Part shown: positions 51,197 to 61,282 of the stretch, in pieces
How positions within the stretch are numbered: position 1 is the stretch's first letter
Layout of the letters: each line of letters begins with the position of its first letter
Position numbers and translations under genes: made by a program
Notes under the pieces: model-generated
Told to the model about the DNA's origin: nothing
Seen by the model: the letters and a program-made list of their open reading frames with translations, nothing else
Databases searched by the model: none
DNA from: Oscillospiraceae bacterium
GTDB lineage: Bacteria; Bacillota; Clostridia; Oscillospirales; Ruminococcaceae
Direction: 5' to 3'
Assembly (NCBI GenBank): GCA_017536405.1
Contig: JAFXHL010000052.1
Span: forward strand, 1 to 64,000
DNA length: 64,000 bases

Positions 51197-51628
51197 ATGA
51201 GTCTTACAGAAAAAGTTGCTTATCTTAATGGTCTTATGTCAGGTCTTGATATAAACGATTCAACATCTGAAGGTAAGGTTTTACTTCAGATGGCTGATAT
51301 TCTTTCAGAAATGGCTGATGTTATCGAAGGAGTTCAGGATGAAATCGACGAAATCACAGAACTTGTTGATACAATCGATCAGGATCTTGGCGATGTAGAA
51401 GAAGATCTTTACGGTGATGATTGTGATTGCGACTGTGATTGTTGCGATGATGATTGCGATTGTGATTGCGCAGATGACGATTTCCTTTATGAAGTTGTTT
51501 GCCCGAGTTGCGGAGATTCAATCTGTCTCGACGAGTATATGATTGAAGACGGATCCATCAACTGTCCTAATTGCAATGAACTTCTTGAATTCGATCTTGA
51601 AGAATGCGATTGTGAAGATTGCGAATAA
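51197..51628 (+). CDS. CD1247-type protein with Asp/Cys repeat and zinc ribbon
   Basis: A 143-aa acidic protein of the kind named after the CD1247 N-terminal domain in Clostridia; function unknown. Residues 1-70 form a helical domain (SLTEKVAYLNGLMSGLDI and on). Residues 74-95 are almost only alternating Asp and Cys. A four-cysteine zinc ribbon (CPSC, CPNC) follows, and the tail again has DCDC-like residues. The Asp/Cys stretch could bind metal. It is 34 bp behind efp with AAGGAGG before the start. Confidence 0.75.
   Translation: MSLTEKVAYLNGLMSGLDINDSTSEGKVLLQMADILSEMADVIEGVQDEIDEITELVDTIDQDLGDVEEDLYGDDCDCDCDCCDDDCDCDCADDDFLYEVVCPSCGDSICLDEYMIEDGSINCPNCNELLEFDLEECDCEDCE
51415..51480 (+). 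repeat. Short tandem repeat encoding Asp-Cys alternation
   Basis: Repeats of GATTGTGATTGC and close variants lie within the CD1247-type gene and encode the Asp/Cys-rich stretch. Such repeats can gain or lose units by slippage in multiples of 3 without breaking the frame. Confidence 0.7.
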
Positions 51629-53980: not shown

Positions 53981-54019
53981 AAACCCGAAGAAATATGTTT
54001 TTCTTCGGGTTTCTTTTAT
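53981..54019 (+). terminator. Terminator of metK
   Basis: The stem AAACCCGAAGAA/TTCTTCGGGTTT is followed by CTTTTATTT. Confidence 0.88.
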
Positions 54020-54048: not shown

Positions 54049-54077
54049 TTGACTATTATTTTGTAAAGTTGTATAAT
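54049..54077 (+). promoter_or_regulatory. Promoter of the GHL10-amidase operon
   Basis: TTGACT (54049-54054) and TATAAT (54072-54077) are 17 bp apart, 37 bp before the ATG. Confidence 0.8.
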
Positions 54078-54114: not shown

Positions 54115-55617
54115 ATGAAAAAGAAAATATCTTTAATCCTGACATTTTTTCTTATAATTAGTTTATTGACAGCTTGTCGTAAGGAAATAGAAAGTATTCC
54201 ATACGAAGAAGAATCGACAATTTCTTCAGGAGAGATTATAGATTTTTTTAATCCTGACGGAACACTTTATTCTGACACGACTTTGATTTCTGAACTTGAA
54301 TTACCCGTAGAAACAGAATATACATCAGAAAACACGTTAGTTTCTGAATCTATAAGTCAGACTTCAGAAACTACAACAAAACCTGTAACTCAGGAAACAA
54401 CCATTGTTACAACAACAGAAGAAACAACAACTACTACAACTGTTGCGACCACAACCGCTGTTCCGATAACTACAACCGTTGCAACGACTACAACTATACC
54501 GAAGGCTACATACAATCCTTCAAATTACACTCCTCTTAATTACAGTAACCAGATCGGAATATGGATTTCCTTCCTTGAATTTCAGAATGTTCTTAAAGGA
54601 AAGTCGGAATCGCAATTCAGGAAATCTGTATGTGAGATGTATGATAATTGCGTATCTATGGGAATCAACACAGTCTATGTTCATGCTCGTTCCCATGGAG
54701 ATGCATTCTATGTTTCAGATTTATATCCATGGTCAAAGAACATAACAGGAGAAATTGGTGCAAAACCTTCGTTTGACCCATATGAAATACTTGTAGAAGA
54801 GGCACATAAAAGAGGTCTTTCGTTTCATGCATGGATAAACCCTATGCGTACTGTGACAGAAGATGATATGAAAAAAATATCTGATTCTTATCAGATTAAA
54901 AAATGGGCGAAAAACAAAAATGGTACATATATCGTTAATGTAAACGGAACATATTGGCTTAATCCTGCTTATAAAGAAGTAAGACAACTTATTGTAAATG
55001 GCGCACAGGAGATAATTTCAAAGTATAATGTTGATGGAATTCATATAGATGATTATTTTTATCAATCATCGTTTACAAATTCTTTTGATAAATCTGCGTT
55101 TTCTTCAAGTGGTTATTCTGATTTGAAAAGTTTTAGGGTTAACAATATAAATCTTATGGTAAAGGAAATTTATAGCGGTGTAAAGAATATCAATCCATCG
55201 GTTTTATTTGGTATAAGTCCTGCGGGGAATATAGACAACTTATATGCTTATCATTGTGCAGATGTAAAAACATGGTGTTCTAAAAACGGATATTGCGATT
55301 ACATAATTCCGCAGATATACTGGGGATTTACACATAAGTCTGCTGCTTATGATAAAATGCTTGGACAATGGTGTTCTATACATACAAATAAAAATGTAAA
55401 ACTTGTCGTAGGGCTTGCGGCATATCGTGCCGCGGACGGAGAAATGGAGAATGAACCTCAGGTTCTTTCAAAGCAGATTTCTTATTTTAAAAATCAATAT
55501 CCTTCGCATTACGGAGGAGTAGCTTTCTTCAGATACGAAAACCTTTTTAAACCATCGTCAGCACAAAAAAGTAAAATTCAATCTGAATTGGAAGCACTGG
55601 AATCACAACTTGAGTGA
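54115..55617 (+). CDS. GHL10-family glycosidase-like lipoprotein
   Basis: A 500-aa surface lipoprotein. Its signal peptide ends in LLTAC; a Thr-rich linker (about residues 80-135) leads to a TIM barrel of the GHL10 family (PF02638). Hallmarks are HARSHGDAFYVSDLYPWS, HAWINPMR, VDGIHIDDYF (residues 306-315) with its paired aspartates, and YIIPQIYWGF. A GHL10 member in E. coli, DigH, cuts peptidoglycan glycans stripped of peptides. The gene directly downstream encodes an amidase that would make such glycans, so a wall-trimming role is likely but inferred. Confidence 0.87.
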   Translation: MKKKISLILTFFLIISLLTACRKEIESIPYEEESTISSGEIIDFFNPDGTLYSDTTLISELELPVETEYTSENTLVSESISQTSETTTKPVTQETTIVTTTEETTTTTTVATTTAVPITTTVATTTTIPKATYNPSNYTPLNYSNQIGIWISFLEFQNVLKGKSESQFRKSVCEMYDNCVSMGINTVYVHARSHGDAFYVSDLYPWSKNITGEIGAKPSFDPYEILVEEAHKRGLSFHAWINPMRTVTEDDMKKISDSYQIKKWAKNKNGTYIVNVNGTYWLNPAYKEVRQLIVNGAQEIISKYNVDGIHIDDYFYQSSFTNSFDKSAFSSSGYSDLKSFRVNNINLMVKEIYSGVKNINPSVLFGISPAGNIDNLYAYHCADVKTWCSKNGYCDYIIPQIYWGFTHKSAAYDKMLGQWCSIHTNKNVKLVVGLAAYRAADGEMENEPQVLSKQISYFKNQYPSHYGGVAFFRYENLFKPSSAQKSKIQSELEALESQLE

Positions 55618-55635
55618 CAGAAAGGAGGGAAAGGT

Positions 55636-58605
55636 ATGAGAAAACGTGTTATTTCAAAAATATTTGCTATGTTTGTTGTGTTTATAGCTTTTTTTGCACA
55701 AAACAGTGTTCAGATATCAGCTGTTATGGAAGGGACAGAGGTAACAACAGTTCCTGAAACAGTTGTTCCTACAGAAAATGCATTTACTGATGAACAACTT
55801 GAAGATTTTGTTGAACCTGAATATGTAAGTCAGTTTACCTTTCCTGACTATATGAAAGCTGTAACATTAAGACCTTCTATTGATTTTGCAAAAGAAATTA
55901 TTACTCAAACAGAAGATGGGGTGATTATCAAGTCAGAACCTACATCAGAACAGATTTCCGCTGAACTTGATGAAATAATGTCGAATATTTCATCACTTGG
56001 TATGAACTCGGTTATTATCTTTACATCTTATAATGGTAAGGCTTATTACTCCGATGATATAAATGATACTGTAGAAGTTACTCCGGTTGAAATGGCGATA
56101 TCAAAAGCTAAAGATAACGGACTTTTTGTTTATCTTGTGTTTGATATAAATTTTGTTCTTACGAGTCTTGAAAATAAGACTTTACAGGAAAGAATAGATT
56201 ATCTTGCGATAAAAACTCATTATTTTACAGCAAAAAACAGAGTTGATGGCATACTTCTGAATGGTTATTATTCGTCTAAAAACAAGACGAGTCTTAACGA
56301 CTATATGCAGAATGGTTCAGGAATAGGTTTTGAAAACTGGCTTATGGATAATGGGGCTTATGTTTTTAGCCTTGTAAGTGATGCTATAAGAAAAACGAAT
56401 AATACTGTTCCTGTAGGAATTTATATTTCAGATGTCTGGTCTAACTATACAACAAACGAAAAGGGTTCACAGACTTTTGGACAATTCGAGGCGCTTTCAG
56501 ATGGATACGCGGATACTCTCTCCTATGTTCAGTATGGATATGCTGATTTTATTATGCTTGATGCACAGGGTGCTATTACAGATGAAAATGTTCCTTTTGA
56601 AGAACTTGTTCGTTGGTGGGCGAATTATGCTGTTCTTGAAAATCTCCCTTTTTATGTAATGCACAATAACCAGAAGATATACACGGACGAACAGGGATGG
56701 AGTTCTCCTGATCAGGTTGTAAAACAGCTTCTTATTACGGAGAAGGTTGACGGATACAAGGGGAGCGCTTTTAAATCTTACACAGACCTTGTCAAGAACG
56801 TCGAAGAAAGTACGGATCTTTTAGGGAAATATTATGATTCTACTATAAATCTTGATACTATTGACAATGAACTCAAAATAGTATCTCCTTCATCGAAGAA
56901 ATTCACAACAGAAGAACCTACTGTTGCTTTTATGGGTAGCTTTGATCCTAATTTTACTGTTTATTTCAATGGTAAAGAAATACAGCTTAACGATGCAGGA
57001 AACTTCTATTACGAAGTTGACCTTGATGTAGGTCTTAATACCTTTACTATCAAAAATAAAGGCAAAACGACAACATATAACATAACAAGAAAAGTTACTG
57101 TTCTCAAATCTGTTGAACCAAGCGGTGCGATGGAAGTGGATGGTGGAACAAATATCACTATACGTGCGATAGCATATAAAGGTTCTTATGTAACCGCTCA
57201 GATCAACGGAAAGAGCATACAGCTTGTTCAGAACGAAGGAAGTATCGAAGGAGAAGCAAACTCAAGTTACGCTTATTTTACTGCTACATATACTACGCCT
57301 AAAGGAATTATAGGAAAGGCTCAGGATTTGGGACAGGTTGTTGTATACGGAACTTATGCAGGAAAGAACGGCGCTAAATTTAATGAATCGCTTTATGGAT
57401 CTACAATAGTTGTTTCACCACTTCCTGAAGTTCCGAATAATGCTGATGGAAGTATTCTCAAAACAAAGTATGATGATACAAATGTCTATAATTACAAAAC
57501 GACAGATAGTATAAAAACTCCTGATATGGCAAGACTTCCTTCAGGAACTATTGATTATTGTGTCAAAACGGTAACATATAGCGGAGTAAAGTATTATCTT
57601 ACACTTTCGGGTAAGAGATTCAAGGCTTCCGATGTTAAAGTTCTTGAAAATTCTCCTATCGGTCAGAATGATATATCTGTTGTTTCCTGTACACAGGATG
57701 GGTATGACACAATTCTGAAATTGAAACTTAACAAACGAACGCCATTTTCTATTTCTTACGGTGGAGTGTCTTATACAGATGGATATGAGGTTTCAAGTTT
57801 CAGTGCGTCAACGGTATCTATTACATTTGATTATACAAATAATGCTTATGGTTCTGTTGATATGCCATCTGGTTCGTTGTTCTCGTCCGCTTCTTGGAGC
57901 GATGCTTCGACTACAAATGTTTCAAGAAACAAACTCACTCTGAACCTTGCAAGAAAAGGCATTTTCGGAGGAGTGACATCGTATTATGATGATAACGGAT
58001 ATCTTACATTCAGATTTAACGGAAATAGTGGCTCTCTTGCAGGTTCTGTAATTGTAATCGACCCAGGACACGGTGTTACCGCGAACGGAAAGATAGACCC
58101 GGGAGGAGTAGGACACATTACAGACCAGTCAGTAGCACTTGCGGTTTCTAAACTTCTTGAATCAAAACTCAAGGCGAGAGGTGCTACGGTTTATCGTCTT
58201 AAAACAGAGTCGACATTTTATGATACAGAGCAAAGACCTGTTATCGCAAGACAATATAATCCCGATGTATTTATTTCGCTTCACGGAAATAAAGCCTCGG
58301 ATTCTTCGGTAAGAGGAACAGAAGCGTGGTATTTTACTCCATATTCCTATCCTCTTGCAAACAGTGTTTCTAAACAGGTTTCAAGATATTTTACCAATAA
58401 TGTTTATAGCGATGGTTCTAATAAAAACAGAGGTGCAAAACAGAGTTATTATTATGTAACTCTTGAGCAGGATTTTGCTTCTATTCTTGTTGAAATCGGA
58501 TTTGTTTCGAATTATGAAGAGGCCATGGCGATGAGTAATTCAAAACATCAGGACGGAATAGCAAATGCCATCGCAAACGGAATCGAAGAATATCTTTCAA
58601 GATGA
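55636..58605 (+). CDS. Secreted N-acetylmuramoyl-L-alanine amidase with degenerate GHL10-like barrel
   Basis: A 989-aa secreted protein with a signal peptide. Residues about 75-400 form a GHL10-like barrel that matches its upstream neighbour in outline, but the catalytic HIDDYF segment reads LLNGYY (about residues 205-210), so the acids are lost. One or two Ig-like domains follow (about 420-550). Amidase_3 begins at DPGHG (809-813), with SLHGN and the catalytic glutamate in VEIGFVSN. The usual second zinc ligand, a glutamate, appears to be D in HITDQSV. The barrel may bind glycan and place the amidase. Confidence 0.85.
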   Translation: MRKRVISKIFAMFVVFIAFFAQNSVQISAVMEGTEVTTVPETVVPTENAFTDEQLEDFVEPEYVSQFTFPDYMKAVTLRPSIDFAKEIITQTEDGVIIKSEPTSEQISAELDEIMSNISSLGMNSVIIFTSYNGKAYYSDDINDTVEVTPVEMAISKAKDNGLFVYLVFDINFVLTSLENKTLQERIDYLAIKTHYFTAKNRVDGILLNGYYSSKNKTSLNDYMQNGSGIGFENWLMDNGAYVFSLVSDAIRKTNNTVPVGIYISDVWSNYTTNEKGSQTFGQFEALSDGYADTLSYVQYGYADFIMLDAQGAITDENVPFEELVRWWANYAVLENLPFYVMHNNQKIYTDEQGWSSPDQVVKQLLITEKVDGYKGSAFKSYTDLVKNVEESTDLLGKYYDSTINLDTIDNELKIVSPSSKKFTTEEPTVAFMGSFDPNFTVYFNGKEIQLNDAGNFYYEVDLDVGLNTFTIKNKGKTTTYNITRKVTVLKSVEPSGAMEVDGGTNITIRAIAYKGSYVTAQINGKSIQLVQNEGSIEGEANSSYAYFTATYTTPKGIIGKAQDLGQVVVYGTYAGKNGAKFNESLYGSTIVVSPLPEVPNNADGSILKTKYDDTNVYNYKTTDSIKTPDMARLPSGTIDYCVKTVTYSGVKYYLTLSGKRFKASDVKVLENSPIGQNDISVVSCTQDGYDTILKLKLNKRTPFSISYGGVSYTDGYEVSSFSASTVSITFDYTNNAYGSVDMPSGSLFSSASWSDASTTNVSRNKLTLNLARKGIFGGVTSYYDDNGYLTFRFNGNSGSLAGSVIVIDPGHGVTANGKIDPGGVGHITDQSVALAVSKLLESKLKARGATVYRLKTESTFYDTEQRPVIARQYNPDVFISLHGNKASDSSVRGTEAWYFTPYSYPLANSVSKQVSRYFTNNVYSDGSNKNRGAKQSYYYVTLEQDFASILVEIGFVSNYEEAMAMSNSKHQDGIANAIANGIEEYLSR

Positions 58606-58607
58606 TT

Positions 58608-58650
58608 AAAAAGACACTTTTGATTTTTATATCAAAAGTGTCTTTTAGAT
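58608..58650 (+). terminator. Terminator of the GHL10-amidase operon
   Basis: The stem AAAAGACACTTTTGAT/ATCAAAAGTGTCTTTT is followed by AGATTTTATTT, 3 bp after the amidase stop. Confidence 0.85.
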
Positions 58651-59706: not shown

Positions 59707-59847
59707 ATGAAACACATCAAAACAATCAACGCTGCAAATCTCAAGAAAACTGCTGAAAAAGGCGGATGTGGAAAGTGCCAGGCTTCATGCCAGTCAGCTT
59801 GTAAGACATCTTGTACAGTAGCAAATCAGAAGTGCGAAAACAAGTAA
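59707..59847 (+). CDS. scfA: SCIFF ranthipeptide precursor (six cysteines in forty-five)
   Basis: A 46-aa ribosomal peptide with the SCIFF hallmark: leader MKHIKTINAANLKKTAEKGG, then a core with six cysteines at 21, 24, 28, 32, 36 and 43. ScfB-type radical SAM enzymes form thioether bridges from these cysteines to the gamma (or other) carbons of partner residues. SCIFF peptides are almost universal in Clostridia and some have been linked to quorum-type signalling. GGAGGAATTATAA precedes the start. It has its own promoter, and a hairpin separates it from scfB. Confidence 0.97.
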   Translation: MKHIKTINAANLKKTAEKGGCGKCQASCQSACKTSCTVANQKCENK

Positions 59848-59863
59848 TAATTGTTTTACTTAA

Positions 59864-59893
59864 AAAGGGACAGAAATGTCCCTTTACTTTTTG
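59864..59893 (+). terminator. Hairpin between scfA and scfB, partial terminator
   Basis: The stem AAAGGGACA/TGTCCCTTT with a GAAA loop is followed by ACTTTTTG. It lies 16 bp after the scfA stop and 29 bp before scfB. It probably lets much more precursor mRNA than enzyme mRNA be made. Confidence 0.75.
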
Positions 59894-59914
59894 CCTTGAT
59901 TCAGGAGGAAACTT

Positions 59915-61282
59915 ATGATACATAAATATAAATATAATGATATGAATATCGTTCTCGATGTTCATAGCGGTGGAGTTCATGTTGTTGACGATCTCAGTTA
60001 TGAAATTCTTGATTATATAAAAGTTCCTATGGATGAAAAATGCCCTGATAATATAATTGATGGGCTTTCAGGGAAATACAATGCAGATGAAATAGTATCC
60101 TGTTATGATGAACTCTACTCTCTTTACAAAGAAAAAATTCTTTTCTCTGAAGATGATTATGAAAGATTTGCAAAATACTCAGTCGCTTCTCCAGTAAAGG
60201 CGATGTGTCTTCTTATTTCTCAGGATTGTAATTTAAGATGTGAGTATTGCTTTGCGGAAACAGGAGATTTTGGAATGGGTAGAAGTCTTATGTCGCTTGA
60301 AACAGGAAAAAAAGCTATAGACTTTCTTCTCGAAAAATCAGGAAACAGAGAGAATCTTGAACTGGATTTCTTCGGCGGAGAGCCTCTTATGAATTTTGAT
60401 GTTGTAAAAGAAATCGTAGAATACGCGAGAATGCGCGAAAAAGAGTGTGGCAAGAATTTCCGCTTTACAGTTACAACAAATGGTCTTCTTCTTACAGATG
60501 ATAAGATAGATTTCATCAATAAAGAGATGTCAAATGTCGTTCTTTCGATAGACGGAAGAAAGTGCGTGAACGATAAAATGCGTCATCGTATCGACGGAAC
60601 AGGATGCTATGATACAATCATAGAGAAATTCCGCAAAACCGTTGATTCAAGAGGAAATAAGGAGTATTATGTCCGCGGAACATATACAAAATATAATCTT
60701 GATTTTTCTGAAGATGTTTTCCATCTTTACGAACAGGGATTTGATCAGATATCAGTAGAGCCTGTGGTTGCTCCTGATACAGCGCCTTATGCTCTTACCG
60801 AAAAAGAACTTCCTGCTATTTTTGCTGAATACGATAAACTTGCAGAAAGACTCCTTGAAAATGACAAAAACGGCAAACATTTTAATTTTTTCCATTTTAT
60901 GCTCGATCTTGACCAGGGCCCTTGTGCTATAAAAAGATTAAGAGGTTGTGGATGCGGAAATGAATATGTAGCCATCAGCCCTAATGGTGATATTTATCCT
61001 TGTCATCAGTTCGTAGGAATTGACGAATGGAAAATGGGCAATCTCAACGAAGAGACATTTGATTATAAAATAAAGGATTATTTTGCTTCAGCACATATAT
61101 ACACAAAGGAAGAGTGCAAAAAATGTTGGGCAAAATTCTATTGCAGTGGCGGATGTAATGCGAATAACTACATATATGCCGGCGATGTTCATAATGCTTA
61201 TAAGATGTCTTGCGAAATAGAAAAGAAACGTCTCGAATGTGCGATCTATATGAAGGCAGTAAAAGCTTGTGAAAATGAATAA
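59915..61282 (+). CDS. scfB: Radical SAM thioether-forming SCIFF maturase
   Basis: A 455-aa radical SAM enzyme that cross-links ScfA. It has an N-terminal leader-binding (RRE-like) region of about 90 residues, the SAM cluster motif CNLRCEYC (C105, C109, C112) and a C-terminal SPASM domain with many cysteines (CGCG, CHQF, CKKC, CSGGC) for two auxiliary Fe-S clusters. CAGGAGGAAAC precedes the start. The neighbouring scfA supplies the substrate. Confidence 0.96.
   Translation: MIHKYKYNDMNIVLDVHSGGVHVVDDLSYEILDYIKVPMDEKCPDNIIDGLSGKYNADEIVSCYDELYSLYKEKILFSEDDYERFAKYSVASPVKAMCLLISQDCNLRCEYCFAETGDFGMGRSLMSLETGKKAIDFLLEKSGNRENLELDFFGGEPLMNFDVVKEIVEYARMREKECGKNFRFTVTTNGLLLTDDKIDFINKEMSNVVLSIDGRKCVNDKMRHRIDGTGCYDTIIEKFRKTVDSRGNKEYYVRGTYTKYNLDFSEDVFHLYEQGFDQISVEPVVAPDTAPYALTEKELPAIFAEYDKLAERLLENDKNGKHFNFFHFMLDLDQGPCAIKRLRGCGCGNEYVAISPNGDIYPCHQFVGIDEWKMGNLNEETFDYKIKDYFASAHIYTKEECKKCWAKFYCSGGCNANNYIYAGDVHNAYKMSCEIEKKRLECAIYMKAVKACENE

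Follow-up and report, generated by a model that had tools for sequence, protein, structure and literature searches.

Cooperation between an amidase and a glycan cutter acting after it is known from cell division in Escherichia coli and from spore engulfment, where the two activities reside in separate proteins. In E. coli, amidases produce denuded glycans that are degraded by the GHL10 hydrolase DigH, which acts in cell separation (PMC12288456), and in sporulating Firmicutes SpoIID requires the prior amidase action of SpoIIP (PMC6221140). DigH is only one reference point for GHL10, since Cwp19 of Clostridioides difficile, a GHL10 protein with a solved structure (PDB 5oq2/5oq3), is reported to act as a lytic transglycosylase on whole peptidoglycan (PMC6016235). 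This study concerns a GHL10 gene, P1, and the amidase gene directly downstream, P2, of an Oscillospiraceae bacterium (assembly GCA_017536405.1); they lie within positions 1 to 64,000 of contig JAFXHL010000052.1, hereafter the window. Sequence comparisons and structure models suggest, with a probability of roughly 0.7, that P1 and P2 form a two-gene peptidoglycan-cleavage operon of a gut bacterium, which was once one protein and in which a dead GHL10 barrel has been kept as a non-catalytic folded domain.

Each of the described systems resembles this locus in part. The P1 barrel matches Cwp19 over its full length and has all of its active-site residues, and the P2 barrel shares with it the fold and a W-N...GS-T loop; unlike P2, Cwp19 lacks an amidase and binds the cell wall through CWB2 repeats, and the P2 barrel does not have the active site of Cwp19. 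P1 has a domain of the same kind as DigH, and the amidase-then-glycan logic would match, but the E. coli amidases AmiA, AmiB and AmiC are separate proteins, and neither a fused or paired amidase nor a dead barrel has been described there. In SpoIIP/SpoIID an amidase likewise strips peptides and its partner cuts denuded strands; however, the domains are unrelated, and the window genome has its own separate SpoIIP and SpoIID matches. The C-terminal domain of P2 is that of the Amidase_3 amidases CwlV (1jwq), AmiC (4bin) and CwlD (7rag), including the metal site and catalytic Glu, but none of these contains a GHL10-type barrel, and P2 scored 89.7 bits against the NCBIfam CwlD model, well under its cut-off of 221.6. 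The individual domains are known. A search of the open-licence literature turned up no account of a protein joining GHL10 to an amidase, of such a protein divided over two genes or of the dead barrel.

Both open reading frames are located on the forward strand at the positions given in the original prediction, P1 at 54115-55617 (500 amino acids) and P2 at 55636-58605 (989 amino acids). P1 matched the Pfam GHL10 family (PF02638) with 177.5 bits against a curated cut-off of 27.9 (E 4.6e-52), and Cwp19 (5oq2) in the PDB at E 2.4e-55. Its N-terminus is a signal peptide ending in an LLTAC lipobox, as in bacterial lipoproteins, and a Thr-rich linker separates this region from the GHL10 barrel (residues 148-489; 54556-55581). 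The lipobox pattern was found in 63 of 71 paired P1s, and several of the others still end in a plausible lipobox. The likely active site of Cwp19 comprises W36, Q77, W127, R132, D196, Y197, S250, Q295, Y297, G328 and F367 (PMC5765458); these 11 residues and the adjacent D195 were combined into a 12-position score. P1 keeps 12 of 12 positions, counting a His in place of Gln77 that is found in 27 of 82 P1s, and its beta4 segment VDGIHIDDYF (55030-55059) contains the Asp pair equivalent to Asp195/Asp196. P1 is therefore predicted to be a membrane lipoprotein with an intact GHL10 barrel, which would cleave glycan.

P2 is a five-domain protein, predicted to be secreted, in which a signal peptide is followed by a GHL10-fold barrel (residues 64-405; 55825-56850), a Glucodextran_B-like beta domain (residues 412-489; 56869-57102; PF09136, E 7.2e-8), further all-beta domains (residues 496-800; 57121-58035), assigned from the secondary structure of the model and conserved across the P2-like family, and an Amidase_3 domain (residues 806-984; 58051-58587; PF01520, E 1.2e-36, 126.8 bits). 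The lipobox pattern is absent from the signal peptide of the window P2, and only 3 of 89 P2-like proteins match it. A check of alignment columns located the amidase site at H812, D830, H883 and E953, of which, as is established for Amidase_3, the first three are metal ligands and E953 is the catalytic Glu. Position 830 is Glu in 62 of 65 P2 relatives, and the metal site and catalytic Glu are otherwise conserved. With a profile match, a metal site and the catalytic Glu all present, P2 is a likely amidase, as judged from the domain and the site intact in its family.

The barrel of P2 was recognised as a GHL10 homologue through its relatives and its predicted structure. The window barrel itself had no Pfam GHL10 match at E <= 1; P2 relatives such as those at loci L051 and L129 do pass the GHL10 cut-off. 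As a single sequence it matched Cwp19 in phmmer at 3e-13, a profile of the P2 barrel family found Cwp19 as its sole PDB match at 4e-44, and P2-type and P1-type barrels matched each other in profile-profile comparison at 2e-37. An AlphaFold2 model built on an alignment of 65 relatives had a predicted local distance difference test score (pLDDT) of 94.8, and in Foldseek its top matches were three Cwp19 chains (E 2e-20, template modelling score 0.79), separated by about 11 orders of magnitude in E-value from the next match at 2.6e-9. The active site, in contrast, is lost. Only Tyr197 of the 12 positions is kept in the window P2, and where P1 reads VDGIHIDDYF, P2 reads VDGILLNGYY (56242-56271), with D195 replaced by N and D196 by G in Cwp19 numbering; single loop positions of this alignment may be one residue off, which leaves the replacement of DD by NG in beta4 and the losses of W127 and R132 unaffected. 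Across the family, scores were 11-12 of 12 in all 82 P1-type barrels and 0-4 of 12 in all 88 P2-type barrels. The P2 barrel is therefore a GHL10 homologue by modelled fold, yet, judged by its active-site residues, not a catalytic member. The original prediction had read both segments as they stand, coordinates included, and had proposed a GHL10-type barrel with its active site lost at the N-terminus of P2, a view that the structural check upholds.

The pairing of the two genes was surveyed in 198 genomes of the taxonomic family of the window, which yielded 90 P2-like open reading frames on the retrieved loci. In 74 of them a GHL10 open reading frame lies directly upstream on the same strand, mostly with gaps of 10-100 bp, so that the expected co-occurrence in relatives was borne out. 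GHL10 is present in 181 of the 198 genomes, and mere co-presence therefore says little; adjacency is the informative part. It is not a by-product of stable gene order, since the neighbours of the window pair differ between loci, none being found at more than 12 of 89. A search with the single protein returned 12 close relatives, mostly Oscillospiraceae metagenome-assembled genomes, several of them from ruminant guts.

The order and class were searched with a profile of the P2 barrel plus linker, and 40 loci were read. The same five-domain order was found in 17 other families, where the barrel scored as ordinary GHL10; in 31 such proteins it keeps 10-12 of the 12 active-site residues. Over 127 chains the scores formed two peaks, dead barrels at 0-5 and apparently live ones at 10-12, with none at 6-9. 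An adjacent GHL10 gene accompanies 74 of 93 dead-barrel chains and none of the 28 live chains whose upstream region was long enough to judge (Fisher 3e-15). Most genomes with a live chain match GHL10 strongly in that chain only; a second strong match is present in G533 and G289. The link between the predicted amidase and glycan cutter thus takes one of two forms, a single protein or a pair of neighbouring genes.

Some related chains depart from both arrangements. In those at L165, L170 and L164 the same linker and amidase follow an N-terminal region in which a GHL10 barrel can no longer be recognised. A P2-like amidase at L051:43-4305 (genome G067), downstream of a GHL10 gene, has an extra C-terminal SpoIID domain (PF08486, 9.6e-11); from its domain content it is a further independent join of a P2-type amidase with a denuded-glycan cutter, making two kinds of putative glycan cutter at one locus.

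Phylogenetic trees were used to trace the origin of the dead barrel. The tree of the linker plus amidase groups the dead chains, and with them one live chain (L161), in a single clan of 36 rows with support 100, surrounded by live chains. Two further chains, L092:2626-5580 and L129:3872-6814 (genomes G176 and G088), represent a second, paralogous GHL10-amidase chain in which the active site has likewise been lost; they are placed elsewhere, within a live clan (support 98), and by this placement are a second, independent barrel loss. The barrel tree separates the P1-type barrels from those of dead and live chains alike, in a clade of 26 rows with support 100. A loop read as VWSN...GSQT in P2 (56434-56475) points the same way: its pattern WxN...GSxT is present in Cwp19 and absent from the window P1, and it occurs in all 31 live chains under a loose pattern, as well as in 72 of 93 dead barrels, among them the window's (VWSNYTTNEKGSQT). 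The loose pattern is also present in 26 of 85 P1-type sequences; a strict one matches 5 of these 85, compared with 26 of 31 live chains and 61 of 93 dead barrels. An origin of the dead barrel as a copy of P1 is rejected, given the separate P1-type clade and the window P1 without the shared loop. From the trees and the loop shared with live chains, the dead barrel most likely descended from the live barrel of a one-chain protein. The change would have run from live to dead, since the catalytic residues are common to Cwp19 and GHL10 at large, and evolution would have proceeded from one chain to a gene pair.

These data suggest the following mechanism. The ancestor would have combined both activities in one chain, in which beta domains connected a live GHL10 barrel to Amidase_3. 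In the lineage of the window, the chain's own barrel would have lost catalysis and been retained as a folded non-catalytic domain, with glycan cutting supplied by the separate GHL10 lipoprotein gene directly upstream. P2, being secreted, would strip the stem peptides off the glycan through its Amidase_3 domain as a first step, and P1, anchored as a membrane lipoprotein, would cut the glycan strand through its live barrel as a second. The order of P2 before P1 is proposed by analogy with the systems described above, and what the dead barrel may do is likewise a proposal. The original prediction is partly supported: its two-step wall-cutting module gains independent support from one-chain relatives that carry both enzyme domains apparently intact. 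The module may serve in division, cell separation or turnover, of which the original prediction favoured the first two. For the poorly studied GHL10 family in Gram-positive gut bacteria, the appearance of the two steps in a single protein in some genomes and in neighbouring genes in others is strong guilt by association, and with one-chain and two-chain versions to compare, their order can be tested directly.

Several observations weigh against the proposed operon and its descent. Sixteen of the 90 P2-like open reading frames have no adjacent GHL10 gene, and a few unpaired genomes have no GHL10 match anywhere (G195 and G001, and outside the family G211 and G225). In about half of the family's genomes GHL10 is present and a P2-like protein is not, which shows that GHL10 does not depend on P2. 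The Fisher test ignores relatedness and the tree requires only two barrel losses, so that the link between dead barrels and adjacent genes rests mainly on one clade. The trees come from quick searches, and the dead barrels are long branches in them. Finally, the Glu metal ligand of the amidase is Asp in the genus of the window (3 of 65 relatives; D830, codon 58123-58125).

The ratio of non-synonymous to synonymous substitution rates (dN/dS), taken from comparisons of the window with its closest relatives, larger distances being saturated, was 0.016-0.019 for the dead barrel, 0.015-0.036 for the amidase domain and 0.043-0.045 for the live P1 barrel. Values as low as those of the amidase domain indicate purifying selection on a maintained barrel and reject the idea of decaying debris. 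Strongly selected although dead, the barrel poses a clearly delimited question about pseudoenzymes in the biology of the cell wall.

The original prediction assigned to this barrel the binding of glycan and the targeting of the amidase. A glycan-binding module that keeps the amidase on its substrate is a tentative possibility, with the odds somewhat against it. The strong purifying selection would agree with such a role, as would the W-N...GSxT loop by the barrel mouth, retained in P2 as in Cwp19 and the live chains, and some conserved aromatics, W268, W355, Y211 and Y223, which lie in mouth-side loops. However, the likely sugar-contacting positions W36, W127, Y297 and F367 of Cwp19 are lost or variable in P2 barrels, and in a face-wise test for retained ligand binding the mouth side was no more conserved than the opposite side (p 0.75). 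With these losses, and with conservation that is unfocused on the former active-site face, this part of the prediction is still a conjecture.

Another proposal is a docking or activating partner of P1, a pseudoenzyme that regulates its active homologue and holds both enzymes at one site; the close pairing of genes, which is confined to chains with a dead barrel, would suit it. Complexes of amidases with lipoproteins or activators are known (GerS-CwlD 7rag, LytH-ActH 7tj4, EnvC-AmiB 8c0j), but the 16 of 90 dead-barrel chains that have no adjacent GHL10 gene count against this proposal, and it is rather doubtful. A similarly doubtful extension is that, once glycan cutting had moved onto the lipoprotein, the old barrel became a receptor coupling both enzymes, or a sensor of denuded glycan; if true, the pair would be a controllable version of a formerly fixed one-chain cutter.

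It is unlikely that the barrel is a mere structural spacer remaining from the one-chain ancestor. It occupies the same place in all chains, and its conservation is spread over core and loops; nevertheless, a dN/dS matching that of the amidase domain and near-invariant W328, D304, G376 and Q364 among sequences of 22-97% identity exceed the needs of a spacer, although folding constraints could account for part of this. That the P2 barrel is still an enzyme with a rebuilt active site is highly improbable, since, for all its confidently folded AlphaFold2 model and an Asp at 195 in 48 of 88 and at 196 in 20 of 88 P2 barrels, the family does not keep the catalytic Asp196 and has lost R132, Q295 and W127 as well.

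The sequence around the proposed P1-P2 operon contains candidate regulatory signals, all on the forward strand. A terminator-like hairpin after metK (53981-54012), with a 13-pair stem and a T-rich tail, would insulate the pair upstream. It is followed by a promoter-like site, TTGACT-17-TATAAT (54049-54077), which matches 11 of 12 consensus positions, scores best in the region and lies 37 bp 5' of the P1 start; the number of promoter-like sites in the region shows no excess over shuffles. The gap of 18 bases between P1 and P2 contains a strong ribosome-binding site for P2 (GAAAGGAGGG, 55620-55629). A second terminator-like hairpin with a 16-pair stem (58609-58646) lies immediately 3' of P2. The two genes are flanked by two hairpins, with one promoter-like site in front; this order, in which the elements are pattern matches, would be the layout expected of a two-gene operon.

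Two other features of the window were recorded. At 51197-51628 it encodes an Asp/Cys-rich zinc-ribbon-like protein with a CD1247 N-terminal domain (NF045650). Near yajC, at 59707-61282, there is a SCIFF system of a known kind, comprising a Cys-rich peptide of 46 amino acids and a radical SAM maturase (TIGR03974, 696 bits).

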